The notes under the pieces: generated by a model
Told to the model about the DNA's origin: nothing
The model's input: the letters and a program-made list of their open reading frames with translations, nothing else
The model's database searches: none
Position numbers and translations under genes: made by a program
Part shown: positions 9,781-49,164 of the stretch, in pieces
Layout of the letters: the number at the start of each line of letters is the position of its first letter
Numbering within the stretch: position 1 is the first letter of the stretch
Assembly: GCF_023091155.1 (NCBI RefSeq)
Contig: NZ_JAHWXK010000001.1
Span: forward strand, 496,001 to 560,000
DNA: 64,000 nucleotides
Origin: Microbacterium sufflavum
GTDB taxonomy: Bacteria; Actinomycetota; Actinomycetes; Actinomycetales; Microbacteriaceae
Reading direction: 5' to 3'

Positions 9781-9794
9781 ACCAAGCAATTGCT
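9781..9794. promoter_or_regulatory. KstR2-like operator 1 (divergent SDR / echA20 promoters)
   Basis: ACCAAGCAATTGCT, matching the KstR2 consensus AnCAAGnnCTTGnT at all fixed positions but one. It adjoins the minus-strand -10 TATGCT of the SDR-hydratase operon. Confidence 0.75.
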
Positions 9795-9826
9795 AGGGCA
9801 AATGCACGGTGAGGGTTCCGTCGATA

Positions 9827-9840
9827 ACCAAGCAACTGCT
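9827..9840. promoter_or_regulatory. KstR2-like operator 2 (divergent SDR / echA20 promoters)
   Basis: ACCAAGCAACTGCT, 46 bp from operator 1. A degenerate third copy (CAAACGTTAGGT, 9853-9864) follows and overlaps a possible -10 TAGGTT for echA20. Confidence 0.72.
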
Positions 9841-9874
9841 AGGGTGCTTGAGCAAACGTTAGGTTAGGTGTCCG

Positions 9875-10633
9875 ATGACGATCACTTCCACCCTGCACCC
9901 TCGCGGCGTCCGCACCGTCACGATGGACTACCCGCCGGTGAACGCACTCCCCGTCGCCGGGTGGTTCGACGTGGCCGCCGCGATGCGCGAGGCCACGGCC
10001 GACGCCGAGACCCGCGTCGTCATCCTCCGCGCCGAGGGCCGCGGGTTCAACGCGGGCGTCGACATCAAGGAGATGCAGCGCATCGAGGGCTTCTCCGGCA
10101 TCCTCGGCGCCAACCGCGGCTGTTACGAGGCGTTCAAGGCCATCTACGAGTGCGCCGTTCCGGTCATCGCCGCCGTCAACGGTTTCTGCCTGGGCGGCGG
10201 GATCGGCCTCGTCGGCAACAGCGACGTGATCGTCGCCTCCGACGACGCGACCTTCGGCGTGCCCGAAGTGGACCGCGGCGCGCTCGGCGCCGCCACCCAC
10301 CTGGCCCGCCTCGTGCCGCAGCATCTGCTGCGCTCGCTGTACTTCACGAGCCGCACGGTGACGGCGCAGCGTCTCGCGGAGTTCGGATCCGTCGACGCGG
10401 TGGTGCCACGCGCCGACCTCGACGCGACCGCGCTCGCGCTCGCGGAGGAGATCGCCGCGAAGGACCCGCGCGTCATCCGCGCCGCCAAGGAGGCGCTGAA
10501 CGGCATCGACCCGATCGACGTCAACCGCAGCTACCGGTTCGAGCAGGGCTTCACGTTCGAGCTCAACCTCGCCGGCGTCGCCGACCAGCACCGCGACGCG
10601 TTCGTCGCGACCGGCGAGAACCTGACGACATGA
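9875..10633 (+). CDS. echA20: EchA20-type crotonase, ring-D hydrolase of HIP catabolism
   Basis: 252 residues. From memory it closely resembles mycobacterial EchA20 (Rv3550) along its length: ITSTLHPRGVRTVTMDYPPVNA, GRGFNAGVDIKEMQR, ANRGCYEAFKAIYECAVPVI and EQGFTFELNLAGVAD fit the subfamily, not generic hydratases. EchA20 hydrolytically opens ring D of the bicyclic CoA intermediate, giving the COCHEA-CoA substrate of IpdAB. It is first in echA20-ipdA-ipdB-ipdC, the same order as Rv3550-Rv3553, each overlapping the next by ATGA. TAGGTT at 9860-9865 could serve as -10; no strong ribosome site precedes the ATG. Confidence 0.92.
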   Translation: MTITSTLHPRGVRTVTMDYPPVNALPVAGWFDVAAAMREATADAETRVVILRAEGRGFNAGVDIKEMQRIEGFSGILGANRGCYEAFKAIYECAVPVIAAVNGFCLGGGIGLVGNSDVIVASDDATFGVPEVDRGALGAATHLARLVPQHLLRSLYFTSRTVTAQRLAEFGSVDAVVPRADLDATALALAEEIAAKDPRVIRAAKEALNGIDPIDVNRSYRFEQGFTFELNLAGVADQHRDAFVATGENLTT

Positions 10634-11475
10634 CCACCGCCGGATCCGCCGCCGATCTCGCGCCGCTGATCCGCGACGGCATGACGATCGGCGTCGGCGG
10701 CTGGGGTTCACGGCGTAAGCCGATGGCCCTCGTGCGGCAGATCGTGCTCTCCGGGGCGCGCGACCTGCGCATCGTCAGCTTCGGCGGACCGGACGTGGGC
10801 CTGCTCTGCGCCACTGGCCAGGCGTCCGAGATCGTGCACGGGTTCGTCTCGCTCGACAGCATCGCGATCGACCCTTACTTCGCGGACGCCCGGCAGTCCG
10901 GCGCGGTGCGCAGCGTGGAGTACGACGAGGCGATGCTGGTCGCCGGACTCCGCGCCGCCGCCCGGCGCCTGCCCTTCGAGGCCACCCGGGCGGGGGCGGG
11001 CTCGGACGCCGTCAGCCGCAACCCCCAGATCCGCACGATCACATCGCCCTACGCCGACGCCGAGGTGCTGGTGGCGATGCCCGCCGTGCCCCTCGACCTC
11101 GCCCTGCTCCACCTCGACCGGGCCGACGCCGCCGGCACCGCCGTGTGCCTCGGGCCGGACCTGTTCTTCGACGACCTGTTCGCGGGCGCGGCGGCGCACA
11201 CCGTGGTGAGCGTGGAGGAGGTGGTGGACACCGCCGCGCTGTGGACGGGGCTCGGCCCCACGGCGCGCTTCCTCGACCGCACGCTCACCGACCGGATCGT
11301 GCATGCCCCGGGCGGAGCCGGGTTCACGGCGCATCCGCCCCATCACGACCGCGACGAGGAGGGGCAGCGCGCCTACGCCGCCGCGGCCGCCTCGCCCGCG
11401 GACCGTGAGGCGTATCTGACCCGGTTCCGGGCGGGCGAGCTCGCCCCGCGGACGAGTGAGGCGGCGACACAATGA
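10630..11475 (+). CDS. ipdA: IpdA-like alpha subunit of the COCHEA-CoA hydrolase (copy 1)
   Basis: 281 residues of the CoA-transferase class I alpha fold. GVGGWGSRRKPMALVR and FGGPDVGLL are IpdA hallmarks, and VEYDEAML keeps the Glu (about residue 100) at the place of the catalytic Glu of IpdA. IpdAB hydrolyses ring C of the steroid remnant. This copy holds the syntenic position after echA20, yet its C-terminal half (VHAPGGAGFTAHPPHHDRDEEGQRAY) is more diverged from the mycobacterial protein than copy 2 at 24715. It overlaps ipdB by ATGA. Either subfunctionalisation or different substrates could explain two copies. Confidence 0.87.
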   Translation: MTTAGSAADLAPLIRDGMTIGVGGWGSRRKPMALVRQIVLSGARDLRIVSFGGPDVGLLCATGQASEIVHGFVSLDSIAIDPYFADARQSGAVRSVEYDEAMLVAGLRAAARRLPFEATRAGAGSDAVSRNPQIRTITSPYADAEVLVAMPAVPLDLALLHLDRADAAGTAVCLGPDLFFDDLFAGAAAHTVVSVEEVVDTAALWTGLGPTARFLDRTLTDRIVHAPGGAGFTAHPPHHDRDEEGQRAYAAAAASPADREAYLTRFRAGELAPRTSEAATQ

Positions 11476-12221
11476 CGGCCACGCGCGCCGAGGTCGCGAT
11501 CGCCGCGTGCAGCGACCTCTTCCGCGGCGCGGGCACGATCCTCGCGAGCCCCGTCGGCATCGTGCCCACCGTCGGGGTGCGGCTCGCGCGGCTCACGCAC
11601 GCGCCCGGCCTGCTGCTCAGCGACGGCGAAGCCACCCTGTACGCCGACACCCCCGCCGTCGACGAGCCGTTCCGCGAGCCGGAGGCGCCGCTCCCCTACG
11701 CGCAGCTGTTCGAGCTGATCGCCCGCGGTCGCCGCCACGTGATCATGGGGGCCGCACAGCTCGACCGCCACGGCGACCAGAACCTGTCCGCGATCGGCGA
11801 CCGCGACCGTCCCACCCGGCAGCTGCTCGGCGCCAGGGCCGCCGCCACGAACACCGTCAACCACGCGACCAGCTACTGGGTCGCCCGCCACAGCCCGCGC
11901 GTGTTCGTGGACCGGGTGGACGTGGTCACGGGCGTCGGGCCGGCCAGGGCGCGCACGGCCGGGGCCCACCGCTTCCACGACGTGCGCCGCATCGTCACCG
12001 ACCTCGCGGTGCTCGACCTGACCGGCCCCGGCGCCACGGTCGCCCTCGTCAGCCTGCACCCCGGCGTGACCCTCGACCGGGTGGTCGCGGCCACCGGCTT
12101 CCCGCTGCACATCCCCGCCGTCGTCCCCGAGACCCGGCAGCCCACCGCCGAGGAGCTGCGCCTGGTGCGCGAGCGTCTCGACCCCCGCGGACTCCGCGAC
12201 CGAGAGGTGATCGCATCATGA
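11472..12221 (+). CDS. ipdB: IpdB-like beta subunit of the COCHEA-CoA hydrolase (copy 1)
   Basis: 249 residues. ATRAEVAIAACSDLFRGAG, LLLSDGEATLYADTPA, RRHVIMGAAQLDRHGDQN and NTVNHATSYWVARHSPRVF match IpdB (Rv3552), including the NHATSYWV string that copy 2 lacks. It should pair with the overlapping IpdA (ATGA junction) and is itself coupled to ipdC. The usual GVRGSPGNT loop is changed to GARAAATNT here, a difference near the CoA-binding face that may matter for specificity. Confidence 0.87.
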   Translation: MTATRAEVAIAACSDLFRGAGTILASPVGIVPTVGVRLARLTHAPGLLLSDGEATLYADTPAVDEPFREPEAPLPYAQLFELIARGRRHVIMGAAQLDRHGDQNLSAIGDRDRPTRQLLGARAAATNTVNHATSYWVARHSPRVFVDRVDVVTGVGPARARTAGAHRFHDVRRIVTDLAVLDLTGPGATVALVSLHPGVTLDRVVAATGFPLHIPAVVPETRQPTAEELRLVRERLDPRGLRDREVIAS

Positions 12222-13291
12222 CCACGCCCCCGCAGCTCTCCACGCCGCTCACGCGCCTGACCGGCGTCGACCATCCGATCGTGCAGACCGGCATGGGCTG
12301 GGTCGCCGGCGCCCGCCTGGTCACCGCCACCGCGCAGGCCGGAGCGCTGGGCATCCTCGCCTCCGCCACCATGACCATCGACGAGCTCGAACGGCAGATC
12401 ATCGAGGTGACCGAGCGCACCGACCGGCCCTTCGGCGTGAACCTGCGCGCCGACGCCGGGGATGCCACCGAGCGCGTCGAACTGCTCATCCGGCACGGCG
12501 TGAAGGTCGCCAGCTTCGCTCTCGCCCCACGACGCGAGCTGATCGAGCGACTCAAGGACCACGGCGTGGTCGTGATCCCCTCGATCGGGGCCGTGCGGCA
12601 CGCCGAGAAGGTCGCGGCGTGGGGTGCGGACGCCGTGATGGTGCAGGGCGGTGAGGGCGGCGGTCACACCGGCGCCGTGCCCACCTCGATCCTGCTGCCC
12701 TCGGTGGTCGCGGCCGTCGACATCCCCGTGATCGCGGCCGGCGGCTTCCACGACGGACGGGGTCTCGCCGCCGCGCTCGCGTACGGCGCCGCCGGGGTCG
12801 GGATGGGCACGCGGTTCCTGCTCACGAGCGACAGTTCGGTGCCCGAGGCCGTGAAGCGGCGATACCTCGACTTCGGGCTGGACGGCACGGTCGTCACCAC
12901 GAAGGCCGACGGCATGCCCCACCGCCTGCTGCGCACCGAGTTCGTGGAGGGACTGGAGGGCGGAAGCGGGGTGTCCCGCCTGCTGCCGACGCTGCGCCGG
13001 TCGTGGGAGTTCAAGAAGCTGAGCGGCCTGAGCTGGCCGCAGCTGGTGCGGGATGCCGTGTCGATGAAGAAGGCGACCGGGCGCTCCTGGACGCAGATGA
13101 CCCTCGCCGCGAACACTCCGATGCTGCTGAAGGCCGGGCTCGTCGACGGCGACACCTCCGCGGGCATGCTCGCCGCCGGCCAGGTGGTGGGGCTGATCGA
13201 CGACCTCCCCAGCTGCGAGGAGCTCGTCGACCGCGTGGTGCGCGACGCCGTGGCCCACCTCCGCGCCGCCGCCTCCTGCGTCCTCGCCTGA
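12218..13291 (+). CDS. ipdC: IpdC, flavin-dependent nitronate-monooxygenase-like oxidoreductase of HIP catabolism
   Basis: 357 residues, TIM-barrel FMN protein of the nitronate monooxygenase family: HPIVQTGMGWVAGARLVTA, GVNLRADAGD, MVQGGEGGGHTGAVPTS and VIAAGGFHDGRGLAAALAYGA give the phosphate and flavin contacts. In the HIP pathway IpdC (Rv3553) oxidises the hydroxylated bicyclic CoA intermediate before ring opening. Length and position directly after ipdB equal those in mycobacteria. It ends the operon; a GC hairpin follows the stop at once. Confidence 0.9.
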   Translation: MTTPPQLSTPLTRLTGVDHPIVQTGMGWVAGARLVTATAQAGALGILASATMTIDELERQIIEVTERTDRPFGVNLRADAGDATERVELLIRHGVKVASFALAPRRELIERLKDHGVVVIPSIGAVRHAEKVAAWGADAVMVQGGEGGGHTGAVPTSILLPSVVAAVDIPVIAAGGFHDGRGLAAALAYGAAGVGMGTRFLLTSDSSVPEAVKRRYLDFGLDGTVVTTKADGMPHRLLRTEFVEGLEGGSGVSRLLPTLRRSWEFKKLSGLSWPQLVRDAVSMKKATGRSWTQMTLAANTPMLLKAGLVDGDTSAGMLAAGQVVGLIDDLPSCEELVDRVVRDAVAHLRAAASCVLA

Positions 13292-13369: not shown

Positions 13370-14521
13370 TCAGAGGCGCTCGATGATGGTGACGTTGGCG
13401 AGACCGCCGCCCTCGCACATGGTCTGCAGACCGTAGCGACCGCCGGTGCGTTCGAGCTCGTTCAGCAGCGTCGTCATGAGACGGGTGCCCGTCGCGCCGA
13501 TCGGGTGACCGAGGGCGATGCCGCCCCCGTTCACGTTCACCTTCTCGTGCGGCACCCCGGTCTCGCGCATCCAGGCGAGCACGACCGACGCGAAGGCCTC
13601 GTTCACCTCGAACAGGTCGATGTCGTCGAGGCTCATGCCCGTGCGCTCCATCGCGTACCGCGTGGCGGGGATCGGCGCGGTGAGCATGAACACCGGGCTG
13701 TCGCCGCGCACCGACAGGTGGTGGATGCGCGCGCGGGGCGTGAGCCCGTGGTCCTTCACCGCCTGCGCGCTCGCGACGAGCACCGCGCTAGAGGCGTCGC
13801 TGATCTGCGAGGCCACGGCAGCCGTGAGCCGTCCGCCGGGGGTGAGCGTCTGCAGGCCCGCCATGCGCTCGAGCGAGGTGTCGCGGCGCACGCCCTCGTC
13901 GCGGTCGAGCCCGTTCAGCGGGGCGATCTCGCCGTCGAACCGACCCTCGTCCTGCGCTCTGGCCGCCCGCTGATGGCTCTCCAGCGCGAACCGCTCCATC
14001 TCCTCGCGCGTGATGTCCCACTTCTCGGCGATCATCTCCGCGCCGACGAACTGCGAGATCTCCTGCCCGGGGTAGCGCTCCTGCCAGCCCGGCGACTCGG
14101 CGAACGGCGTGGTGAAGCCGTATGCCTCTCCGGCCACCATGGCCGAGGAGATCGGCAGCTGCGACATGTTCTGGAGACCGCCGGCGATCACCAGGTCGCT
14201 GGTCCCGCTCATCACGGCCTGCGCGGCGAAGTGCACGGCCTGCTGGCTCGAACCGCACTGCCGGTCGATCGTGACGCCGGGCACGTGCTCGGGGAAGCCA
14301 GCGACGAGCACGGCGGAGCGACCCACGTTGCCCGCCTGTCCTCCGATCGTGTCGGTCGCGCCGATGATCACGTCGTCGAGCGCGCCAGGGTCGATGCCCG
14401 TCCGCTCCACGAGCGCCTTCAGGCTGTGCGCGCCGAGGTCGGCCGGGTGGATGCCGGACAGCGAGCCGCCCCGCTTCCCGACGGGCGAGCGGACCGCGTC
14501 GACGATGTATGCCTCTGCCAT
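13370..14521 (-). CDS. fadA6: FadA6-type thiolase of HIP catabolism
   Basis: 383 residues, full thiolase length. Nucleophilic Cys in DRQCGSSQQA, then NEAFASVVLAWM, GGGIALGHPIGATG and CEGGGLANVTIIERL (second Cys). The ends EAYIVDAVRSPVGKRGG and GRYGLQTMCEGGG follow mycobacterial FadA6 (Rv3556c) closely. It performs thiolytic cleavage of 3-ketoacyl-CoA late in C/D-ring degradation. Third gene of fadE30-ipdF-fadA6, 20 bp after ipdF, and convergent with ipdC. Confidence 0.9.
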   Translation of the reverse strand: MAEAYIVDAVRSPVGKRGGSLSGIHPADLGAHSLKALVERTGIDPGALDDVIIGATDTIGGQAGNVGRSAVLVAGFPEHVPGVTIDRQCGSSQQAVHFAAQAVMSGTSDLVIAGGLQNMSQLPISSAMVAGEAYGFTTPFAESPGWQERYPGQEISQFVGAEMIAEKWDITREEMERFALESHQRAARAQDEGRFDGEIAPLNGLDRDEGVRRDTSLERMAGLQTLTPGGRLTAAVASQISDASSAVLVASAQAVKDHGLTPRARIHHLSVRGDSPVFMLTAPIPATRYAMERTGMSLDDIDLFEVNEAFASVVLAWMRETGVPHEKVNVNGGGIALGHPIGATGTRLMTTLLNELERTGGRYGLQTMCEGGGLANVTIIERL

Positions 14522-14541
14522 GGTGTTCCTTCTCTCCGGGT

Positions 14542-15330
14542 TCACGCGTGCTGACTGCTGACGGCGACGACCTCGCCGGTCATATAAGAGGAGTATGCGC
14601 TGGCGAGGAACACCATGACGTTGGCGACCTCCCAGGGTTCCGCGGCCCGGCCGAACGCCTCGCGCGCTTTCAGCTGCTCCAGCAGCTCGGGCGAGGTGAC
14701 CTTCTCCAGGAACGGGTGCATCGCGAGGCTCGGTGACACGGCGTTCACGCGGATGCCGTGCGGCGCGAAATCCATCGCCGCGCTGCGGGTGAGCGCCATC
14801 ACGCCGGCCTTCGCGGCGGCGTAGTGGGCCTGCTCCACCTGCGCGCGCCAGCCGATCACGGACGCGTTGTTGACGATGACGCCGGCCGTGCCCGCCGCGA
14901 CCATGCGGCGGCCGACCGCGCGCAGGCACCGGAACGTGCCGGTGAGGGTCACGTCGATCACCCTGTCCCACTGCTCGTCGGTCATGTCGAGGATCGACAC
15001 CGACCCGCCGAGCCCGGCGTTGTTGATCATCACGTCGATCGCGCCGCCGTCCTCCGCGAGGTCGAGGAGGGCGGCGACCTGGTCCTCGACGGTCACGTCG
15101 CACACGGCGGTGCGCACGCGGTCGGCGCCGAAACGGTCACCCAGCTCGCTCTGCGTCTCGGCGAGGCGGCCGGCGTGCGTGTCGCCGAGCACCACGAGCG
15201 CCGCGCCCTCCTCCAGGCAGCGGACCGCGGCGGCCTGACCGATGCCGGCTCCGGCGGCGGCCGTGATGACGACGCGCTTCCCGTCGAGCAGGCCGTGACC
15301 GGGGACGTAGGCGGGGGCGGAAGAGCTCAT
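14542..15330 (-). CDS. ipdF: IpdF-like short-chain dehydrogenase of HIP catabolism
   Basis: 262 residues. The cofactor loop is the unusual VVITAAAGAGIGQAAAVRC, and the C-terminus reads FGRAAEPWEVANV then SSYMTGEVVAVSSQ, a combination I associate with Rv3559c (IpdF). NNAGLGGSVSILDMT, NNASVIGWRAQ and HYAAAKAG supply Asn, Ser, Tyr and Lys. IpdF is an NAD(P)-dependent oxidoreductase acting on the hydroxyl/keto group of the HIP-derived CoA ester. Start ATG at 15330 overlaps the fadE30 stop. Confidence 0.88.
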   Translation of the reverse strand: MSSSAPAYVPGHGLLDGKRVVITAAAGAGIGQAAAVRCLEEGAALVVLGDTHAGRLAETQSELGDRFGADRVRTAVCDVTVEDQVAALLDLAEDGGAIDVMINNAGLGGSVSILDMTDEQWDRVIDVTLTGTFRCLRAVGRRMVAAGTAGVIVNNASVIGWRAQVEQAHYAAAKAGVMALTRSAAMDFAPHGIRVNAVSPSLAMHPFLEKVTSPELLEQLKAREAFGRAAEPWEVANVMVFLASAYSSYMTGEVVAVSSQHA

Positions 15331-16493
15331 GGGCGGGCCTCTCGGGGTAGGCCGAGCACGCGCTCGGCGATGACGGTGCGCTGGATCTCGTCGGAACCGC
15401 CGTAGATCGTGTCGGCGCGGCTGAACAGGAACAGCGTCTGCAGGTCGTCCAGCGCGTAGTCCGCGCCGACCCGCAGGGCCTCGGGTCCGGCGACCTCCAT
15501 CGCGAGCTCGCCGAGCGCGCGGTGCCAGTTCGACCACAGCAGCTTCGCGACGGAGGCGCCGTCGCCCTGGGCACCGCCGAGCGTGCGGAGGGCGTGCTGG
15601 CGGATCACCTCCAGGTCCATGCGGGCGCGCACGAGCCGGTCGCGGATCACGGCATCGTCGATCGCGCCGGTGCGCTGCGCCGTCTCGATCACGGCGTCGA
15701 GCTCGCGACGGAACGCGATCTGCTGCGCGAGGGTGGAGACGCCGCGCTCGAAGCCGAGGGTCGCCATCGCGACGCGGAAGCCGTTCCCCTCGCCGCCTAC
15801 GACGAGGTCGGCATCGGTGCGGGCGTCGTCGAAGAACACCTCGTTGAACTCGCTGGTCGCGGTGAGCTGCAGGATCGGGCGCACCTCGACGCCGGGCTGG
15901 TCCATCGGCACGAGCAGATACGACAGACCCTGGTGGCGGCTCGATCCCGGTTCGGTGCGGGCGATCACGAAGCACCAGTCGGCGTGCTGCGCGAGGGACG
16001 TCCACACCTTCTGCCCCGTGACGGACCACTCGTCGCCCGTGCGCTGAGCCTTGGTCGCCACCGCGGCGAGGTCGGATCCGGCGCCCGGCTCCGAGTAGCC
16101 CTGGCACCACAGCTCCTCGACCGCGACGATGCGCGGCAGGAAGCGGGCCTGCTGCGCGGGCGTGCCATGCGCGATGAGGGTGGGGCCGAGCAGCTCCTCC
16201 CCCAGATGGTTCACGCGGGCGGGGGCGTCGGCGCGGGCGTACTCCTCGTGGAAGATGACCTGCTGCGCGATGCTGAGTCCGCGGCCGCCGTGCTCGACCG
16301 GCCAGCCCACGCACGTCCACCCCGCAGCGGCCAGGTGCCGGTTCCACTCCAGGCGCGCCTCGAAGTCCTCGTGCTCGCGACCGGAGCCGCCGCGGCCGCG
16401 CAGCGCGGCGAAGCGACCGGTGAGGTTCTCTTCCAGCCAGCCGCGGATCTCGGCGCGGAATCGCTCGTCCGCGTCGTGCTGCGTCGCGTCCAT
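15327..16493 (-). CDS. fadE30: FadE30-type acyl-CoA dehydrogenase (HIP-CoA dehydrogenase)
   Basis: 388 residues. RAEIRGWLEENLTGRFAAL, EYARADAPARVNHLGEELLGPT, WCQGYSEPGAGSDLA, EFNEVFFDDARTDADLVVG and YGGSDEIQRTVIAERVLGLP follow mycobacterial FadE30 (Rv3560c) almost string for string. It introduces the double bond into the propionyl side chain of HIP-CoA, passing electrons to ETF. First gene of the fadE30-ipdF-fadA6 operon, read from the divergent promoter region with operator 3. Confidence 0.92.
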   Translation of the reverse strand: MDATQHDADERFRAEIRGWLEENLTGRFAALRGRGGSGREHEDFEARLEWNRHLAAAGWTCVGWPVEHGGRGLSIAQQVIFHEEYARADAPARVNHLGEELLGPTLIAHGTPAQQARFLPRIVAVEELWCQGYSEPGAGSDLAAVATKAQRTGDEWSVTGQKVWTSLAQHADWCFVIARTEPGSSRHQGLSYLLVPMDQPGVEVRPILQLTATSEFNEVFFDDARTDADLVVGGEGNGFRVAMATLGFERGVSTLAQQIAFRRELDAVIETAQRTGAIDDAVIRDRLVRARMDLEVIRQHALRTLGGAQGDGASVAKLLWSNWHRALGELAMEVAGPEALRVGADYALDDLQTLFLFSRADTIYGGSDEIQRTVIAERVLGLPREARP

Positions 16494-16552: not shown

Positions 16553-16566
16553 ACCAAGCGATTGTT
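16553..16566. promoter_or_regulatory. KstR2-like operator 3 (divergent fadE30 / enoyl-CoA hydratase promoters)
   Basis: ACCAAGCGATTGTT, within the longer near-palindrome CCAAGCGATTGTTTGG (16554-16569). It lies midway between the two start codons. TACTAT on the minus strand (16538-16543) is a -10 candidate for fadE30. Confidence 0.75.
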
Positions 16567-16602
16567 TGGTTTCGCTCCCGGGAGTTCAGAGAGGAACCCG
16601 CC

Positions 16603-40951: not shown

Positions 40952-42546
40952 CCACCCAGCACGACCTCCTCGTCGTCGGCGCCGGCCTCGCCGGGCTGTA
41001 CACCACGATCCACGCCGAACGGGCCGGGCTCGACGTGCTCGGGCTGGAGGCCGGCGACGACGTGGGAGGCACCTGGTACTGGAACCGCTACCCCGGTGCG
41101 CGGTGCGACGTGGAGAGCATCGACTACTCGTTCTCGTTCGACGACGAGCTGCAGCGCGAATGGCGATGGACCGAGCGCTATGCGACACAGCCCGAGATCC
41201 TGCGCTACCTGAACCACGTGGCCGACCGCTTCGACGTGCGCCGCCACTACCGGTTCGGGCAGCGCCTGTCCGCCGCGACCTGGGACGAGGGGCTGCAGCA
41301 CTGGGAGGTGCGCACGGAGACCGGGCTGACGGCGACCGCGCGGTGGCTGGTGATGGCGACGGGCGGGCTCTCGAAGCCGCAGCTGCCCGATCTCCCCGGG
41401 CGCGACACCTTCGCCGGCACCGTGCTGCAGACCTCCGCCTGGCCCGAGGGCCCGGTCGACCTGCGGGGGCGGCGCGTGGCCGTGATCGGCACGGGGTCGT
41501 CCGGTGTGCAGGCCATCCCGCTGCTCGCGGAGCAGGCGTCCGAGCTCACGGTGTATCAGCGCAGCGCCAACTACAGCGTGCCCGCGTTCAACCGTCCGAT
41601 CGACGACGAGGAGTGGGCACAGCAGCAGCGGGCCCTGCCGCGACGGCGCGAGCTGTCGTGGAACGGTGCCGCGGGCTCGCCGTGGACGAGTCATCCCGTG
41701 CCCTTCGCGGAGACCGGCGAGGAGGAGCGGCGGGCGGTGTTCGAGGAGAGCTGGACCCGCGGCGGCGTGCTGTTCGCGAAGGCGTTTCAGGGCCTCACGG
41801 TCGACCCGGTGATCAACGACGCCGCGCGGTTGTTCTTCGAGGAGAAGCTCGCCGAGCGGGTGCATGATCCCGAGGTGCGCGCGACGCTGACCCCGCGCGA
41901 TCACCCCGTGGGCACCAAACGCATCTGCACGGACTCGGGCTACTACGAGACGTTCAACGCCCCGCACGTGACGCTCGTGGATCTGCGCACGGAGCCTCTC
42001 GCCGAGGTCACCCCGACCGGCATCCGCACGGCCGCCCGGCACCGCGAGCACGACGTGATCGTGTACGCCACGGGCTTCGACGCCATGACCGGGGCCCTGA
42101 CGGCGATCGACATCCGGGGCCGCGAGGGCCACTCGCTGCGCGAGGACTGGAGCGGCTTTCCCTCCACCTACCTCGGTATCGGACTGCCCGGGTACCCGAA
42201 CCTGCTGGTGCTGAACGGCCCGGGCAGCCCCAGCGTGCTGTCGAACATGGCGCTGACGTCGGAGCAGCAGGGCGACCTGGCGCTGCGGATGATCGCGCAC
42301 TGCCGTGACCGCGGGTTCACGTCGATCGAGGCGCGCGCGGATGCGGCGGAGGCGTGGACGGCGCACTCCCTCGAGCTCGCCGACCGCACGCTGTTCGGCT
42401 CCGCACCCTCGTGGTACACCGGCGCCAACATCGCGGGGAAGGCTCGCGGCTTCCTGCCGTACATCGGCGGCTTCAAGGCCTACATCGACCGGTGCGAGGA
42501 GGTCGCCGCCGCCGGATTCCGCGGTTTCGTGCTGTCGTCGCGCTGA
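40948..42546 (+). CDS. Baeyer-Villiger flavin monooxygenase
   Basis: 532 residues. FAD Rossmann VVGAGLAGLYTTIHAERAG, GGTWYWNRYPGARCD, NADPH Rossmann VIGTGSSGVQAIP and GTKRICTDSGYYETFN with the Arg of the active site are cyclohexanone-monooxygenase-type features. The BVMO fingerprint FxGxxxHxxxW(P/D) reads FAGTVLQTSAWP (155-166), so the conserved His is Gln161. It should insert oxygen next to a ketone to give an ester or lactone; the substrate is unknown (a cyclic or steroid-type ketone fits the setting). Coupled to the esterase gene. Confidence 0.9.
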   Translation: MTTQHDLLVVGAGLAGLYTTIHAERAGLDVLGLEAGDDVGGTWYWNRYPGARCDVESIDYSFSFDDELQREWRWTERYATQPEILRYLNHVADRFDVRRHYRFGQRLSAATWDEGLQHWEVRTETGLTATARWLVMATGGLSKPQLPDLPGRDTFAGTVLQTSAWPEGPVDLRGRRVAVIGTGSSGVQAIPLLAEQASELTVYQRSANYSVPAFNRPIDDEEWAQQQRALPRRRELSWNGAAGSPWTSHPVPFAETGEEERRAVFEESWTRGGVLFAKAFQGLTVDPVINDAARLFFEEKLAERVHDPEVRATLTPRDHPVGTKRICTDSGYYETFNAPHVTLVDLRTEPLAEVTPTGIRTAARHREHDVIVYATGFDAMTGALTAIDIRGREGHSLREDWSGFPSTYLGIGLPGYPNLLVLNGPGSPSVLSNMALTSEQQGDLALRMIAHCRDRGFTSIEARADAAEAWTAHSLELADRTLFGSAPSWYTGANIAGKARGFLPYIGGFKAYIDRCEEVAAAGFRGFVLSSR

Positions 42547-42591: not shown

Positions 42592-42605
42592 AACAAGCAA
42601 ATGCT
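42592..42605. promoter_or_regulatory. KstR2-like operator 10 (SDR at 42624)
   Basis: AACAAGCAAATGCT, part of the palindrome CAAGCA-AA-TGCTTG (42594-42607). It lies three bases after -10 TAGAGT (42584-42589), covering the expected start point. Confidence 0.75.
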
Positions 42606-42623
42606 TGGGCAAAGGAGCGCGGG

Positions 42624-43367
42624 ATGAGTGCCATCGACCTCGGATTCACCACGGGAGACGCGGTGCTCATCACCGGCGCGGGCAGCGGCATCGGCCGGGC
42701 GACCGCCGTGCGCGCGGCCGAGCTCGGACTGGCCCTGAGCCTGTGGGATCTGAACCCCGAGGGACTCGAGGAGACCGCGACGCAGGTGCGCGCGATCGCC
42801 CCCGCGGTGCACACCTGGGTGGCCGACGTGTCGGACGATGCCGCCGTGTCCGCGGGTTTCGCCGACGCCGCCGCCACCCTCGGCCCGGTGCGCTACCTGC
42901 ACAACAACGCCGGCCCCGCGTCTGCTTCCACACTCCCCTTCGACCGTGCCCTGGAGATCTGCGTGGGCAGCGTGCGCCGTGTGACCGACGCCTGGGCGGC
43001 GGCCGGTCCCGGCACCGGCGCCGCGATGGTCGCCACCACCTCGGTCGCCGGCAACCTCGTGGGCACCGACAGCGCGTGGTACTCCGCCGCGAAGGCCGCC
43101 ATCATGGGCTACGTCCGCCACCTCGCCGCCCACCGCGCCCACGAGTTCCGCTCCAACGGCGTCGCGCCCGGGATGACCGACACCCCGCGGCTCGCCGGGT
43201 TCGCGAGCAGCGAGACCGGACAGCGTGTCCTCACGCGCATTCCGCTGAAGCGCATGGCCACGCCCGACGACATCGCCTGGGCCACACTGTTCCTGCTCTC
43301 GCCGCTCGCGGGCTACGTCAACGGCGTCTTCCTCCCGGTCGACGGGGGCTGGACGGTCACCCAGTGA
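42624..43367 (+). CDS. Short-chain dehydrogenase
   Basis: 247 residues: VLITGAGSGIGRATAVRAAELG, NNAGPASASTLPFD, ATTSVAGNLVGTDSAWYSAAKAAIMG (Ser, Tyr, Lys) and GYVNGVFLPVDGGWTVTQ. Complete catalytic set. AAAGGAGC precedes the ATG. First gene of SDR-thioesterase-NTF2, each overlapping the next (GTGA, ATGA), under operator 10. Likely oxidises a ring alcohol or reduces a ketone. Confidence 0.84.
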   Translation: MSAIDLGFTTGDAVLITGAGSGIGRATAVRAAELGLALSLWDLNPEGLEETATQVRAIAPAVHTWVADVSDDAAVSAGFADAAATLGPVRYLHNNAGPASASTLPFDRALEICVGSVRRVTDAWAAAGPGTGAAMVATTSVAGNLVGTDSAWYSAAKAAIMGYVRHLAAHRAHEFRSNGVAPGMTDTPRLAGFASSETGQRVLTRIPLKRMATPDDIAWATLFLLSPLAGYVNGVFLPVDGGWTVTQ

Positions 43368-43807
43368 GCACGGAGCCCGAGCGCCCGGTGCTGCACTCCC
43401 ACACGACCCGCCTCAGCTACGCGGACACCGACCCCGCGGGGATCCTCTACTACGCCGCCTGGTTCCCGAAGATGGAGGCGCTGCAGTCGGAGTTCCTCTA
43501 TCTGCAGGGGCTACGGCAGGACACGCTGGTCGAGCGCTTCGGGTGGTGGACGGTGTCACGCGCCACGACGTGCGAGTACCTTGCCGCAGCCCGCCTGTTC
43601 GACGAGGTGCGCATCGACCTGCGTCTGGGACGCATCGGCGCCTCGTCATTCCGGTTCGCGTTCCGCATGACCCGACTCGACGACGACGTGCCGGTCGCGC
43701 GCGCCGAGAACACGGTCGTGACGGTCTCCCCCGCGCAGGAGCCCGTGCGCATCCCCGCCGACCTGCGCGCGCACCTGGAGCGCTGGGCGGGACGGGGCGC
43801 CGCATGA
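43364..43807 (+). CDS. Acyl-CoA thioesterase (4-hydroxybenzoyl-CoA thioesterase type)
   Basis: 147 residues, single hotdog. LSYADTDPAGILYYAAWFPKMEAL carries the active-site Asp of the 4HBT family (YxDTDPAGxxYYxxW). GTG start overlaps the SDR stop. It should release CoA from an acyl-CoA, perhaps to relieve CoA trapping during ring degradation. Coupled to the NTF2-like gene. Confidence 0.85.
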   Translation: MSTEPERPVLHSHTTRLSYADTDPAGILYYAAWFPKMEALQSEFLYLQGLRQDTLVERFGWWTVSRATTCEYLAAARLFDEVRIDLRLGRIGASSFRFAFRMTRLDDDVPVARAENTVVTVSPAQEPVRIPADLRAHLERWAGRGAA

Positions 43808-44238
43808 GCGTCGACCTGCGCACGATCGGCGACCGTCAGGAGATCGCGATGCTGCTCGCCCGCATCGCCCACCTGGCCGACGCGGGAGACCCCGCGGAGT
43901 ACGTGCGGTGCTTCACTCCGGACGCGGTCTGGGACCTCACCGACGCGACCGACCTGCCGATGGACGTGCAGACGATCTCCGGGAGGGCGGCGCTGCTCGC
44001 GGGCGTGCACGAGCGCCGTGCGGCCGGCATCCAGGGCCCGGGCACCCACACGCGGCACGACGTGTCGAGCATCGCGGTCGAGGTGGACGGCGACCGGGCG
44101 CGGTCGCGCGCCTACTTCCGCTACTACCGCGGCACCGACGGGGCGCCGGTGCTCGCGGCGATGGGGGTGTACGCCGACGAGTTCGTGCGCGACGGCGACC
44201 GCTGGCTGCTGCGGCGACGCGTGATCAGCCGGGGCTGA
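43804..44238 (+). CDS. NTF2/SnoaL-like protein 4
   Basis: 144 residues. IGDRQEIAMLLARIAHLADAGDPAEYVRCFTPDAVWDLT and HTRHDVSSIAVEVDGDRARSRAYFRYYRG match the NTF2-like fold with the central His strand. Third gene of its operon. Its end overlaps the convergent MBL gene by 14 bp. Dehydratase, isomerase or binding role open. Confidence 0.75.
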   Translation: MSVDLRTIGDRQEIAMLLARIAHLADAGDPAEYVRCFTPDAVWDLTDATDLPMDVQTISGRAALLAGVHERRAAGIQGPGTHTRHDVSSIAVEVDGDRARSRAYFRYYRGTDGAPVLAAMGVYADEFVRDGDRWLLRRRVISRG

Positions 44239-45259
44239 GCCACGCGCGGGCCCGGCCGCTGCGTACGAGCTCGCGGTGCATCTCGGTCTGCCGCAGCGCG
44301 GAGTGCAGCCAGAATCCGTCGAGCCCCTGCCATCCCGCGGTCCACGTGAGGCGCTGCGCGTACTCCCACACCGGGCTGTCGCCGAGCTCGTCGACCAGCG
44401 CTGCCACCTCGGCCGTGCGACGCAGATGGTGGGCCGCGATCCGAGCCCGCCGTTCCCTCAGCCCGGTGAACCGGAACTCGTGGCCGGGCAGCACCGTGAA
44501 GGCGTCGAACGGCGCCAGGCGGTCGAGCGAGTCGAGCAGGTCGCCCAGGGGCTCATCGCCCGGCAGCACGCCGATGCCGACACCCGAGTAGATGCGCGGC
44601 AGCACGTGATCGCCCGTGAACAGCAGTCGCGCCTCTCGGTCGGCGAGGCAGACGTGACCGCCCGTGTGCCCCGGGGTCGCGACGACCTCGAGGCGCCGCC
44701 CGCCGAGGTCGAGCACGTCGCCGTGGGCGAGCAGCACGTCGGGCTCCACGTCGCCGGTGAGGGACGGACGCGTGAACGACGCCAGGAGCTCGGCGTGGCG
44801 ATCGCGGGGGACGCCCCAGCGCTCGACCGTATGGCGGTAGGCCGCGGGGTCGGTGGCCGCGGGATCGACCACGACACCCAGCACCCGTCGCTCGGCGGAC
44901 GACATCGCGATGCGGGCTCCCGTGCGGTCGCGGAGCCGTGCGGCGAGCCCGAGGTGGTCGGGGTGGTGGTGGGTCACGACGACCGTCGCGAGCTCGGACA
45001 GCGCGCGGCCGGCGGCGGCGAGCGCTTCCTCGATGCGGGACAGGTTGCCCGGGGTGTCCCACCCCGGATCGATCAGGTGCACGCCGTCGCCGCCGAGCAC
45101 GGCGTAGGCGAGCGTGCCGGGCAGCGTACCCTCGGGGATCTCGACCGGGATGCACCACAGGCCGGGGGCGATCTCGGCGGGCGGGCACAGTTCGCCGCGA
45201 TCCCACGCCGTCCGCTCCGCCTCGTCGACGGGGACCACGTCGTCCGCTACCGCGTTCAT
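44225..45259 (-). CDS. Metallo-beta-lactamase-fold hydrolase
   Basis: 344 residues. THHHPDHLGLAARL is the HxHxDH zinc motif; TPGHTGGHVCLAD, FTGDHVLPR and PGHEFRF supply the remaining ligands of a glyoxalase-II-like site. A C-terminal helical part (RRTAEVAALVDELG) is as in LACTB2/RNase-like MBL proteins. It probably hydrolyses a thioester or lactone. Single gene under operator 11; an extra hydrolase beside the thioesterase operon. Confidence 0.85.
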   Translation of the reverse strand: MNAVADDVVPVDEAERTAWDRGELCPPAEIAPGLWCIPVEIPEGTLPGTLAYAVLGGDGVHLIDPGWDTPGNLSRIEEALAAAGRALSELATVVVTHHHPDHLGLAARLRDRTGARIAMSSAERRVLGVVVDPAATDPAAYRHTVERWGVPRDRHAELLASFTRPSLTGDVEPDVLLAHGDVLDLGGRRLEVVATPGHTGGHVCLADREARLLFTGDHVLPRIYSGVGIGVLPGDEPLGDLLDSLDRLAPFDAFTVLPGHEFRFTGLRERRARIAAHHLRRTAEVAALVDELGDSPVWEYAQRLTWTAGWQGLDGFWLHSALRQTEMHRELVRSGRARAWLSPG

Positions 45260-45270
45260 GACACCACCCT

Positions 45271-45284
45271 AGCAATCGCTTGTT
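45271..45284. promoter_or_regulatory. KstR2-like operator 11 (divergent MBL / MFS promoters)
   Basis: Minus strand AACAAGCGATTGCT. It overlaps TTGTTC (45280-45285), the -35 of a promoter with -10 TAGCCT (45303-45308, 17-bp spacer) that reads into the MFS gene, and lies 12 bp from the MBL start. Confidence 0.78.
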
Positions 45285-45340: not shown

Positions 45341-46744
45341 GTGACAGTGGAGTCGGGACGAGAGCGCCACGAGCGCGCAGTGGTCGCACTGCTCGCCGCA
45401 TGCGGCATGCTGACCTCCCTGCAGTTCACGCTCATCGTGCCCATCCTGCCGCTCATGCCCGCCCTGCTCGGCACCACGGCCGCCGATGCGTCCTGGCTCA
45501 TCACGGTCACCCTGCTCACCGGGGTGGTCGGCACACCGGTGGTGACGCGGCTCGCCGACCTGCACGGCCGCCGGCGGATGCTGCTCGTGGCCATGGCGCT
45601 GCTCGTCGCCGGATCGGTCATCGCGGCCGTCGTGCCCGGATTCCTCGCGGTGCTCATCGGCCGGGCGCTCCAGGGATTCGGCACCGCCGTGGTGCCGATC
45701 GGCATCGCCCTCCTGAGCGCCCTCGTCTCCCGCCGCCGCGCCGTGCTCGGCATCGCCCTCATGAGCGGCACGCTCGGCATGGGCTCCGCGCTGGGCCTCG
45801 TGCTCGCCGGGCCGCTGCTCGCGTGGGGCGGACTGCCGGCCGTGTTCTGGTGCTCCGCCATCGTGGGCGCCGTGTTCTGCGTGCTCATCCGGCTGCGCAT
45901 CGATGAAGCCCCCACGCGACCCGTGCGGGGATTCGACGGCATCGGGGCCGTGCTGCTCGCGCTCGGGCTCACGGCCCTGCTGCTCGCCATCTCGCGGGGT
46001 CAGTACTGGGGATGGGCCAGCGTGCCGACGCTCGGACTCGCGGCACTCGCGGCCGCGGCACTGCTCGCCTGGCTGCTGTGGGAGCGACGGCACCCGGCAC
46101 CGCTGATCGACGTGCGCACGAGCCTGCGCGCACCGATCCTGCCGATCAACGTGGCCTCGTTCTTCGCGACGGCCGGCATGTACGCCAACCACCTGCTCAC
46201 CACCCAGGAGGCCCTGGCACCCGCCGCGACCGGCTACGGCCTGGCCACCACGACCGCCGCCGCCGGGCTCTTCCTGCTGCCGTCCGCCGTGACGATGATC
46301 GCCCTCGCGCCCCTCGCCGCCCGTGTGATCAGCCGCTTCGGCGGGCAGCGCGCCCTGCTGCTGGGGTCGTCGCTCATGGCCGCGGCGTTCCTGCTGCGGA
46401 TGCTGTTCCACGGCGCGGCCCTGCCCGTCCTGCTCGGCTCGGCACTGGTCGGCGCGGGGGTGGCGTTCGCGTTCGCGGCGATGCCGTCGCTCATCACCGC
46501 CTCGGTCCCTCCAGACGAGGTCGCCACCGCGAACGGTGTGAACTCGGTCATCCGCACGCTGTCCGGCGCGGTCGTCGCCGCTCTCTTCGCGTTCGCGATC
46601 ACCGCCCTGCCCTCGGCCGCCGATCCGTCCTTCCTGTCCGAGCAGGCGCTTCTGCTGTGCTTCGGCGCCGCAGCGCTGTGCGGTGCCGTGACCGCCGTGC
46701 TCGCCACCGTCCTCCGCCTCCCCCGTCTCCCGGAGTCGCCATGA
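45341..46744 (+). CDS. MFS transporter, probable 14-helix drug/metabolite:H+ antiporter (DHA2-like)
   Basis: 467 residues with about 14 hydrophobic helices. LADLHGRRRMLLVAMALLVAG is MFS motif A, RALQGFGTAVVPIGIALLSALV motif B, and GSALGLVLAGPLL resembles the antiporter motif C. Export of a pathway intermediate or uptake of substrate are both possible. GTG start at 45341 lies 32 bases after the -10. Overlaps the reductase gene by ATGA. Confidence 0.86.
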   Translation: MTVESGRERHERAVVALLAACGMLTSLQFTLIVPILPLMPALLGTTAADASWLITVTLLTGVVGTPVVTRLADLHGRRRMLLVAMALLVAGSVIAAVVPGFLAVLIGRALQGFGTAVVPIGIALLSALVSRRRAVLGIALMSGTLGMGSALGLVLAGPLLAWGGLPAVFWCSAIVGAVFCVLIRLRIDEAPTRPVRGFDGIGAVLLALGLTALLLAISRGQYWGWASVPTLGLAALAAAALLAWLLWERRHPAPLIDVRTSLRAPILPINVASFFATAGMYANHLLTTQEALAPAATGYGLATTTAAAGLFLLPSAVTMIALAPLAARVISRFGGQRALLLGSSLMAAAFLLRMLFHGAALPVLLGSALVGAGVAFAFAAMPSLITASVPPDEVATANGVNSVIRTLSGAVVAALFAFAITALPSAADPSFLSEQALLLCFGAAALCGAVTAVLATVLRLPRLPESP

Positions 46745-47901
46745 CCCTGTTCTCGCCACTGACCCTGCGCTCCGTGACGCTGCCCAACCGCATCGGCATC
46801 TCCCCCATGTGCATGTACGCGTCCCGTGAGGGCTTCGTGACCGACTTCCACGTCGCGCATCTCGGACGCTTCGCCCTGGGTGGTGCGGGGCTCGTGATCG
46901 CCGAGGCGACGGCCGTGCATCCGCGGGGCCGCATCTCGCCGTTCGACGCGGGGCTGTGGAGCGACGAGCAGGTGCCGGGGTGGGGTCGGGTCGCCGAGGT
47001 CGTGGGTGCCGCGGGCGCCGTTCCCGGGGTGCAGCTGGGCCACGCGGGGCGGCGGGCAGCGGTGCGCGAGCCGTGGCGGGCCGGTGCACCCCTGGACGAG
47101 ACCGACGCCGCGGTCGGCCACGGCCCCTGGCCCCTCGACGCCCCGAGCGCCCTGGCGGCAGGACCGGGCCACGCCGTGCCCGCGGCGGTCACCGCGGCCG
47201 ACATCGCCCGCTCCGTGCAGGACTGGCACGACGCCGCGGTGCGGGCGGTCGCCGCGGGGTTCCGCTTCGTCGAGCTGCACGGCGCCCACGGCTACCTGCT
47301 GCACTCGTTCCTCTCCCCCGTGTCGAACCGTCGCACCGACGCGTACGGCGGCAGTCCGCAGAACCGGCTCCGCTACCCGCGCGAGGTGGTCGCCGCCGTG
47401 CGGTCGGCGATCGGCGACGGCATCCCGCTGTCGTTCCGGCTGTCCGCGGTCGACGGCGCCGCGGACGGACTGGGGATCGACGACACGGTCGGCATCGCGC
47501 GCGCCCTCGCCGCGGAGGGCGTGGACCTCATCGACACCTCGTCCGGGAGCATCACCACCGACCGCTCGACGGACACCAGGGTCCGTCGCGGCTTCGCCTT
47601 CCACGCCGACTTCTCCCGCCGCATCCGCGACGAGGCCGGGGTGCCGACCGCGACGGTGGGCCTGATCGTGGACCCCGTGCAGGCCGATCGACTGCTCGAC
47701 CACGGCGACGCCGATCTCGTGCTGCTCGGCCGGGAGGCGCTCGACGACCCCAACTGGCCGCATCACGCGCGCGCGGCGCTCGGCGACGACAGCCACGAGG
47801 GATGGGACGTGCGGTTCGGCAGCGCCCTCGGTCCGCGCGCGCGGACGCTCGCCCGGCTCGCCGCCGCGGGTGAGACCCCGCTCTCGCGCTTCGAGGGCTG
47901 A
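46741..47901 (+). CDS. Old-yellow-enzyme family NADH:flavin oxidoreductase (YqjM type)
   Basis: 386 residues, FMN TIM barrel. PNRIGISPMCMYASREG carries the Cys of the thermophilic-like/YqjM class; VQLGHAGRRA, FRFVELHGAHGYLLHSFLSP, NRRTDAYGGS and DLVLLGREALDDP complete the family pattern. These enzymes reduce the C=C bond of activated enones, so an unsaturated ring ketone is a likely substrate. Coupled to the MFS gene and under operator 11. Confidence 0.9.
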   Translation: MTLFSPLTLRSVTLPNRIGISPMCMYASREGFVTDFHVAHLGRFALGGAGLVIAEATAVHPRGRISPFDAGLWSDEQVPGWGRVAEVVGAAGAVPGVQLGHAGRRAAVREPWRAGAPLDETDAAVGHGPWPLDAPSALAAGPGHAVPAAVTAADIARSVQDWHDAAVRAVAAGFRFVELHGAHGYLLHSFLSPVSNRRTDAYGGSPQNRLRYPREVVAAVRSAIGDGIPLSFRLSAVDGAADGLGIDDTVGIARALAAEGVDLIDTSSGSITTDRSTDTRVRRGFAFHADFSRRIRDEAGVPTATVGLIVDPVQADRLLDHGDADLVLLGREALDDPNWPHHARAALGDDSHEGWDVRFGSALGPRARTLARLAAAGETPLSRFEG

Positions 47902-47917
47902 GCCGGAGCCCGAGCAC

Positions 47918-48367
47918 TCAGGGAGCGAGCAGCTCTCTGGCGACCGCATCCCCGTCGAGCAGGTGATTGCGGCGCTCCCGCACGCGCCATCCGTTCGTCG
48001 TGCGCACCAGTTCCCACCGGTTGGCGCTGACCCGCTCCGCTTCCCAGTGGTCGCCGTCGCGCAGCAGCACCACGGAGTGCGTCACGGCCACCGCTGTGTC
48101 CCCGTCGATCTCGATCCGAGGGGCGGAGAGTACGTGCGCGCAGCCGCGGCGCAGATACTCGCGGTGCGACGGCAGGTCGACCAGGGTCCGGATACCGTCC
48201 GCGTCCAGAACCGTGTCGTCAAAGCGGTAGGTGCCATCCGCCGCCCAGAGCGCCGAGACCTCGGCGGCGTCCGCGCTGTCCACGGCGGGCCCGTACCGCG
48301 CGATCAGCTCGGCGATCTCTGCGCGGTCCTCGAGCGCCCGCAGCCGCCGTTCGAGATCGGCGCTCAC
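47918..48367 (-). CDS. NTF2/SnoaL-like protein 5
   Basis: 149 residues. RRLRALEDRAEIAELIARYGPAVDSADAAEVSALWAADGTY, then CAHVLSAPRIEIDGDTAVAVTHS and NRWELVRTTNGWRVRERRNHLLDG, a full SnoaL_4-like domain with Tyr, Asp and His at the BaiE-like places. I chose the GTG at 48367, which overlaps the upstream stop by GTGA and follows CAGGAC; a GTG at 48379 would add four residues. Second gene after the unknown protein under operator 12. Confidence 0.76.
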   Translation of the reverse strand: MSADLERRLRALEDRAEIAELIARYGPAVDSADAAEVSALWAADGTYRFDDTVLDADGIRTLVDLPSHREYLRRGCAHVLSAPRIEIDGDTAVAVTHSVVLLRDGDHWEAERVSANRWELVRTTNGWRVRERRNHLLDGDAVARELLAP

Positions 48368-49110
48368 CAGTCCTGCCACGGGATGATCGTGTGCACCGGG
48401 GTCGACAGAACGACCTCGCCCGCCCCGGGGAACCGCTCTTCCACGGCGCGCAGAGCCGGGGTCACGAGGTCGGGATCGTCCTCCAGATAGAGCAGGCGGA
48501 GGCGCAGGGACCCCGGCTCATCGGCCGGGCTCTCGTCGAACGGCAGGGAGGAGTGCCGCTGCGGGTGGCTGTACGAGAAGGTCCAGGCGCCGGCGACGCC
48601 GTCCACGTCGAGCAGGGCCGGGATGAGTTCGCGGTCCTCTCGCCGATGCGCCTCGTGGGCCTTGTGGCCATGCGGCTCGGCGAAGCGGGTGGCGGTGAGG
48701 TGCAGTCCGCGGTTCGGGCGGTAGGGCAGCACGTCGGGCGACACCAGAGCGCGCGGGGCGGCATAGCCCTTCACCGGACGGAAGAACGCGAGCAGGGGGC
48801 GCTGGATGCCCGGGAGCAGCGGCCCGCGACCCCACTGAAACGAGGCCTCCCCGAGCGCATCCCACGCGGCGACGGACTCGTCGACCGGGTCGCGGAACCA
48901 GTACATGGCGACGAAGTCCACAGCGCCGGCGAGTGACCCTGTGGCCAGACCATCACCCGTCGGTCGCACTTCCCACCGGTCTCCCCCTGCGACGCCGGGC
49001 AGGGCGAGGTTCTCGGGCCGGTGGTCGAGCTGATGCCAGCGGTTGTACTCGGCGTGCTGTGAGCGGTCGTCGAGACGGACGAAGGAGAAGAAGGCGAGAG
49101 GCAGCGACAC
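48364..49110 (-). CDS. Unknown protein, possibly with tandem ferredoxin-like (EthD/Dabb-type) domains
   Basis: 248 residues. The N-terminal half reads [44 protein letters not shown], with the H.LDHRPE string like EthD-type proteins. The C-terminal half repeats a similar beta-alpha pattern ([32 protein letters not shown]). EthD partners act in ether and ring degradation, but the match is loose. GTG start directly beside operator 12, apparently leaderless. It belongs to the regulon by its promoter but has no assigned step. Confidence 0.72.
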
Positions 49111-49116
49111 GCCCCA

Positions 49117-49130
49117 GTCAAGCGTTTGCT
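49117..49130. promoter_or_regulatory. KstR2-like operator 12 (unknown protein / NTF2 operon)
   Basis: GTCAAGCGTTTGCT; the other strand also gives ACCAAGCAAACGCT (49121-49134). It ends the series of boxes on the right and sits six bases from the GTG at 49110. Confidence 0.7.
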
Positions 49131-49164
49131 TGGTGACCTGTCAACACCCGCTCGCCTCGGGCGA

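Follow-up and report, generated by a model that had tools for sequence, protein, structure and literature searches.

A predicted KstR2 regulon for HIP catabolism in a Microbacterium genome in which upper steroid pathway markers were not detected

What use would a bacterium have for a large, jointly controlled set of genes for the late part of steroid breakdown if the early part is not detected in its genome? This question is raised by the window, as we call the 64,000-nt stretch of DNA analyzed here, which covers bases 496001-560000 of contig 1 of a 3.63-Mb Microbacterium genome in 6 contigs. The window carries a gene for the TetR-family repressor KstR2 and, on both sides of it, operator-like boxes that precede genes for catabolism of the steroid C and D rings via HIP, the two-ring acid that remains once rings A and B are removed. 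The evidence supports a KstR2 orthologue, a KstR2-type box and a large, compact predicted regulon, and the best reading of the whole is a stand-alone, KstR2-controlled module for scavenging HIP. That a KstR2 regulon with a HIP-CoA switch is fed by scavenged HIP is, in our judgment, probable. The regulator, the concentrated boxes, the pathway genes that recur in relatives and the undetected KshA, KstD, HsaC-type dioxygenase and KstR are seen in the sequence; KstR2 binding and the effector role of HIP-CoA are taken from published work on relatives.

The regulator and its operator boxes

A sequence-only reading of this DNA had placed a KstR2-like repressor gene at 26364-26975, and PDB matches identify the 203-aa product as a KstR2 orthologue: it matches 2ibd, which we take to be R. 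jostii KstR2, with an E-value of 1e-48 and M. tuberculosis KstR2 (4w97) with 7e-45. Its helix-turn-helix stretch is nearly the same as in 2ibd, and in an alignment it has YRFIRDAVW at the position of YRFIRDTVW, the published M. tuberculosis KstR2-5 motif. All 203 of 203 residues agree with the KstR2 of Microbacterium sufflavum SSW1-51. In NCBIfam, the protein matched no family above cut-off, and no KstR2 model was among its matches.

The same reading had listed 12 sites for this repressor, every one of which was found at its position and in a promoter gap; it had overlooked a thirteenth at 9847-9864 on the minus strand. Its 14-bp KstR2-like motif was right as to the type of box, but 18 bp describe the sites better than 14 bp, with the shared outline ACCAAGC-RNTT-GCTWGGK, in which the central four bases are mostly RNTT. 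In total, 13 palindromic boxes of the AnCAAGnnCTTGnT type, as in a KstR2 regulon, lie in 10 promoter gaps, 8 of them divergent (11 boxes) and 2 tandem, in a region (9722-49164) whose noncoding share is 4.2%. All were recovered by the weight matrix and the genome-wide pattern described below, and all save box 3 by the motif:

Box 1, 9781-9798, plus strand, ACCAAGCAATTGCTAGGG
Box 2, 9827-9844, plus strand, ACCAAGCAACTGCTAGGG
Box 3, 9847-9864, minus strand, ACCTAACGTTTGCTCAAG, the added site, in the same gap as boxes 1 and 2; identical 18-mer in G150, G151 and G154
Box 4, 16553-16570, plus strand, ACCAAGCGATTGTTTGGT, unchanged in the sole alignable relative
Box 5, 22552-22569, plus strand, AACAAACGTTTGCTTGAG, conserved less than the rest of its gap
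Box 6, 24669-24686, minus strand, ACCTAGCGCTTGTTTGGG, unchanged in 3/3 relatives
Box 7, 26999-27016, plus strand, kstR2/fadD3 gap, weakest by leave-one-out
Box 8, 31290-31307, minus strand, ACCTAGCATTTGGTTGGT, unchanged in 3/3 relatives
Box 9, 38464-38481, plus strand
Box 10, 38514-38531, minus strand
Box 11, 42592-42609, minus strand, CCCAAGCATTTGCTTGTT, identical 18-mer in G150, G152 and G154
Box 12, 45267-45284, minus strand
Box 13, 49117-49134, plus strand

At up to 2 mismatches, AnCAAGnnCTTGnT has 31 matches in the window against 4.4 expected from shuffles, genic matches being among them at this tolerance. An 18-bp weight matrix built from 12 sites separated the boxes from their surroundings: each window match of at least 13.5 bits was one of the 13 boxes or an opposite-strand overlap on one, and the top intragenic match, at 25956, reached 13.2 bits. 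When each of the 12 sites was left out in turn, they scored 14.9-27.1 bits and ranked 2-17 in the window; the lowest score, 14.9 bits, belongs to box 7, between kstR2 and fadD3.

The sequence-only reading had proposed a whole-genome scan with a matrix from the sites; pattern matches across the genome, scored with the matrix, showed the strong boxes to be concentrated in the window, with none listed outside it above 16.3 bits. An exact pattern covering all 13 sites matched 13 distinct places in a 39-kb stretch and 3 elsewhere in the genome, the latter at no more than 14.9 bits compared with at least 19.7 bits for the boxes. With up to one mismatch there were 106 matches, and among the 100 listed, the 80 outside the window scored at most 16.3 bits. 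Five random order-3 Markov genomes of 3.63 Mb held 0-1 match of at least 18 bits apiece (two had one at 20.0-20.1 bits), and therefore a lone weak box is not significant whereas the cluster is. Chance matches to a short, loose motif are ruled out by the matrix separation, the genome-wide concentration and the random genomes. As far as can be seen among the pattern matches listed with at most one mismatch, the predicted regulon forms one contiguous block.

The window-built matrix also recognizes mycobacterial operators. It gave 24.0, 20.7 and 23.9 bits to the three M. tuberculosis sites reported to bind KstR2 in electrophoretic mobility shift assays (PMC3068626), and 26.6 bits to an M. smegmatis site for which no such assay is given. 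At 20.7-26.6 bits, these published sites agree with a good part of the 18-bp outline, although the box centre is looser in the window, where position 9 is A, C or T.

Gene content, recurrence and known systems

An independent operon count on fresh gene calls gave 18 units and 42 genes, in agreement with the earlier estimate of about 18 transcription units and about 42 genes; it omits a doubtful 119-aa open reading frame (ORF) and an ASCH gene. The predicted regulon comprises the C/D-ring (HIP) pathway together with importers, SDRs and SnoaL-type proteins, and this boxed gene content, apparently for C/D-ring catabolism, is that of a KstR2 regulon. Assignments are by gene calls and family matches unless stated:

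7129-9721, minus strand: SDR (Hsd4A-like, our own assignment), MaoC/MFE-2 hydratase, epimerase-like protein
9923-13291, plus strand: crotonase (EchA20-like), ipdA1, ipdB1 (6co6_B, E 3e-80), ipdC-like FabK/nitronate-type flavoprotein
13370-16493, minus strand: fadE30-like, ipdF-like SDR and fadA6-like thiolase genes, named by family and position
16603-20709, plus strand: enoyl-CoA hydratase and three acyl-CoA dehydrogenases (fadE31/32/33-like), two matching the IpdE2 model under cut-off
20730-22527, minus strand: SDR, PaaY-like protein, SnoaL_4 protein
22572-23033, plus strand: VOC/glyoxalase-fold protein
23015-24624, minus strand: SDR, aldo-keto reductase
24715-26351, plus strand: ipdA2 (6co6_A, E 7e-100), ipdB2 (by position)
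26364-26975, minus strand: kstR2, TetR-family repressor
27086-28687, plus strand: fadD3-like HIP-CoA ligase, best match the FadD3 family (632 bits against a cut-off of 657)
29207-31242, minus strand: SDR, thiolase
31315-33157, plus strand: SDR, two SnoaL_4 proteins
33705-38431, minus strand: branched-chain-type ABC importer (binding protein, permease, fused permease-ATPase, ATPase)
38564-39343, plus strand: SDR
42624-44238, plus strand: SDR (by sequence start and name in relatives only), 4HBT thioesterase, SnoaL_4 protein
44225-45259, minus strand: metallo-beta-lactamase-fold hydrolase
45407-47901, plus strand: MFS transporter, old-yellow-enzyme oxidoreductase
47918-49110, minus strand: 248-aa protein without a Pfam match, SnoaL_4 protein

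IpdA2 and IpdB1 match the CoA-transferase chains 6co6/6con, which we take to be IpdAB. The FadD3-, IpdC-, IpdF-, FadA6- and FadE30-33-like names follow from family matches and gene order, and EchA20 was assigned by fold and position only. Two of the five SnoaL_4 proteins were compared with the PDB and matched a single uncharacterised entry.

From this content a mechanism can be proposed. KstR2, sitting on the 13 boxes in 10 promoter gaps, would repress the 18 units, its own gene included. Upon entry of HIP, the FadD3 ligase would form HIP-CoA, KstR2 would be released and the whole C/D-ring pathway would be turned on; HIP-CoA is named as the KstR2 effector in a study of Nocardioides simplex (PMC7807495). 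The boxed importers, ABC and/or MFS, might take up HIP, or hydroxylated relatives of it, that other bacteria release. Of the five SnoaL_4 proteins, four share an operon with an SDR (the exception is in the 47918 operon); these proteins may strip or move ring hydroxyls and so feed HIP variants into one pathway.

The arrangement recurs. Each of the 80 kstR2 loci retrieved, those of the best 80 of 489 relatives, contains one or more boxes of at least 18 bits. The order of genes and the placement of boxes are repeated in M. luticocti (60 kb), partly in G096 (60 kb), and also in other Microbacteriaceae, over loci of 20 kb. Exact 18-mers are clustered in G150, which has 12 matches within 39 kb of one contig; G152 and G155 hold single strays, and none was found in Agromyces G161. 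In the mycobacterial genome G177 the strict pattern matches nothing, yet the matrix gives its two boxes near kstR2 23.9 and 24.0 bits. Five gaps were compared with up to 3 relatives, and in 4 of them the box is conserved more than the remaining gap. Occurrence of kstR2 is patchy, since it is present in 16/295 genomes of the genus and 2/150 of the family. A KstR2 tree of 42 rows unites Microbacteriaceae and Arthrobacter in one supported group, within which the three Arthrobacter rows are nested.

Two published regulons are close to this one. The mycobacterial KstR2 regulon (Kendall et al. 2010, PMC3068626) shares with the window the TetR repressor KstR2, a palindromic CAAG-N2-CTTG core, boxes between divergent genes and genes of cholesterol catabolism. 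It comprises 15 genes and 3 boxed promoter regions, compared with about 42 genes, 13 boxes and 10 gaps here, and unlike the mycobacterial system, the window's genome yielded neither KstR nor upper-pathway markers. In Nocardioides simplex VKM Ac-2033D (PMC7807495), the locus tags of ipdA, ipdB, kstR2 and fadD3 run consecutively, in an order that matches 24715-28687 of the window, and a second ipdAB copy is present, as here. Its KstR2 genes fall into at least 2 clusters, accompanied by KstR-controlled upper-pathway genes, whereas in the window's genome a single stretch contains nearly all boxes that can be detected, and no marker of the upper pathway turned up. The HIP pathway of Crowe et al. 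2017 (PMC5380842) has counterparts in FadD3-, FadE30-, IpdF-, IpdC-, EchA20-, IpdAB-, FadE31-33- and FadA6-like proteins of the window, which adds boxed SDRs, SnoaL_4 proteins, a thioesterase, a metallo-beta-lactamase-fold hydrolase, an old yellow enzyme and two importers.

The sequence-only reading had stressed a regulon far above the roughly 15 mycobacterial genes. The size holds, but it is not unprecedented: 29 KstR2 operons, 10 of them up on phytosterol, had already been predicted in N. simplex (PMC7807495), and size alone is therefore no novelty. The surprise is the undetected upper pathway, which a view of the window alone could not reveal. In searches of open-licence papers we recognised none that describes a KstR2/HIP module without the upper pathway across a bacterial family, and two surveys of steroid degraders (PMC4810484, PMC5790920) contain no word beginning with "Microbacter-" in their main texts.

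Upper-pathway markers and the source of HIP

In the window's genome there was no PF19298 match at E<=1e-3 for KshA, no match at E<=1e-30 for KstD, with a query verified as 3-oxosteroid 1-dehydrogenase above cut-off, and no TIGR03213 match at E<=1e-20 for an HsaC-type extradiol dioxygenase. The single weak TIGR03213 match (64.9 bits) is HpaD, a 3,4-dihydroxyphenylacetate 2,3-dioxygenase above cut-off, whose gene (L001:1213-2379) adjoins aldehyde dehydrogenase- and hydratase-like ORFs. As a control for the extradiol search, the Arthrobacter match is nearest to the M. tuberculosis-type 2zi8, which we take to be HsaC. No KstR scored above cut-off (best 38.6 versus 280 bits) in this genome, the one examined for it and without a KstR-positive control genome. 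Of the four marks of an aerobic 9,10-seco degrader, KshA, KstD, an HsaC-type dioxygenase and KstR, the genome thus showed none.

The three enzymes were then compared across 30 kstR2 genomes, namely the window's, G096 and 28 chosen out of the 80 loci (L006-L030, L032, L037, L046). Among the 15 Microbacteriaceae, KstD and the extradiol dioxygenase (E<=1e-20) were each found in 0, and KshA in 0 save for weak matches; the 15 other genomes gave KstD in 14, the extradiol dioxygenase in 14 and KshA in 13, with best KshA scores of 276-319 bits each. Three genomes without HIP genes found near kstR2 (G161, G162 and G174) were dropped to obtain a HIP-carrying subset.

An ordinary large KstR2 regulon, with upper-pathway genes too divergent to detect or on a replicon outside the assembly, would also account for the missing markers. 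The assembly consists of six contigs. That upper and lower parts can separate is seen in Arthrobacter sp. ATA002, where one chromosome carries kshA near 3.245 Mb and, at a great distance from it, kstR2 near 2.15 Mb. Against such hidden genes stand the genome completeness of 99.99% and the HIP-carrying subset, in which the three enzymes went undetected in all 14 Microbacteriaceae, two of them with weak KshA-like matches, while the same queries found KshA in 12/13, KstD in 12/13 and the extradiol dioxygenase in 13/13 of the other genomes. We regard this explanation as unlikely.

Because the 9,10-seco route from a whole steroid to HIP is apparently not open to this bacterium, uptake of external HIP is the proposed alternative. 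A passage of a review on estrogen degradation terms HIP an extracellular metabolite (PMC12507874), and the simplest source of HIP would therefore lie outside the cell.

The main rival keeps the regulon as described and has the cell itself produce HIP, without KshA and KstD, from estrogens or some other polycyclic compound, for example by a 4,5-seco route or by Baeyer-Villiger chemistry through the Baeyer-Villiger monooxygenase (BVMO) at 40948-42546. HIP is described as the point where three routes merge, the 9,10-seco (aerobic), the 2,3-seco (anaerobic) and the 4,5-seco (estrogen) route; the two KEGG steroid genes reported for M. resistens MZT7 are kshB and fadD3; and BVMO and an esterase are located within the cluster. 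Yet a 4,5-seco route needs a ring-A dioxygenase, and the sole TIGR03213 relative in the genome, extradiols having been scanned through TIGR03213 only, is the HpaD enzyme. Inside the interval, a KstR2 box is lacking both for the esterase/BVMO pair (40028-42546) and for the padR gene of its own beside it (39374-39946). Moreover, Microbacterium and other isolates of an estriol-degrading consortium reportedly failed to grow on estriol alone. Internal formation of HIP is possible but, in our estimate, clearly the less probable course.

It is very improbable that the KstR2-like regulator governs catabolism of a different bicyclic compound resembling HIP, such as a terpenoid or secosteroid fragment. 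The kstR2-like genes of Agromyces S2-1-8 and Arthrobacter gandavensis, located away from HIP genes, would fit such a role, and to our knowledge the 15-gene mycobacterial set offers no counterpart to several of the boxed genes (SDR, SnoaL_4 and others), which we count in its favor. However, FadD3-, IpdAB-, IpdC-, IpdF- and FadE30-33-like proteins are all present, in an arrangement that steroid degraders share.

Several observations weigh against the scavenging module. Estradiol transformation, which also speaks for the rival of internal HIP formation, has been reported for Microbacterium strains, and androstadienedione is among the metabolites listed for M. resistens MZT7. Weak KshA-like proteins occur in 2 of the 15 Microbacteriaceae (G096, 98.7 bits; G153, 102.7 bits). 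These genomes are not independent, the window's and G154 (M. sufflavum) being apparently one species, and one of the 14, G163, is a metagenome-assembled genome, where absence weighs less. Absence was judged by three marker enzymes, with HsaA, HsaD, KshB, Mce4, P450s and AedA/AedB left without a search by their own sequences. Box 5, at 22552, is conserved less than its gap. Relatives of the importer, SDR-d or SnoaL-b near kstR2 also occur in genomes with the upper pathway (L025, L032), and the enlarged regulon is therefore not peculiar to stand-alone genomes.

With HIP scavenging as the preferred reading, a wider picture can be drawn, for which we see the chances as about evenly balanced: a guild of Microbacteriaceae would be unable to open the steroid nucleus and would live on HIP-type acids leaked by steroid degraders, KstR2 having changed from regulating a second stage to being the only sensor of an external nutrient, and the regulon having been enlarged by uptake and HIP-tailoring genes. 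If some bacteria hold the post-HIP part only, natural steroid breakdown would be partly a shared task, and surveys based on KshA or HsaC would miss such genomes. A KstR2 system without a detected KstR or upper pathway would also offer a clean test bed for HIP uptake, HIP-CoA sensing and the SDR and SnoaL genes.

Further observations on relatives and unboxed features

KshA, KstD and an extradiol dioxygenase are all present in two of the three Arthrobacter genomes nested in the KstR2 tree group. PF19298 exceeded its cut-off in 2/150 genomes of the family sample, G096 and, barely, G003. The G096 cluster (L089:7074-8111) encodes a 345-aa Rieske-type protein, a distant KshA relative, near BVMO-like and FadD3-like genes, possibly an alternative entry route. 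Two kstR2 paralogues, separated by about 31 kb, are found in Microbacterium sp. Se63.02b (L008, L034), and G417 also has two. In Agromyces S2-1-8 and Arthrobacter gandavensis (L017, L018, L099-L101), the kstR2-like genes adjoin etfBA and cytb561 homologues instead of HIP genes.

Within the window, a GC-rich inverted repeat at 37095-37204, between the ABC binding-protein and permease genes, is perhaps an mRNA stabiliser or attenuator; a promoter and terminator scan of 37050-38600 found nothing, including no terminator at this repeat. The esterase/BVMO pair, which has no box upstream and its own PadR gene, was not adopted as a regulon member. An ATGACT-AGTCAT inverted repeat in the gap between padR and the esterase gene (within 39374-42546) is a possible operator for PadR.

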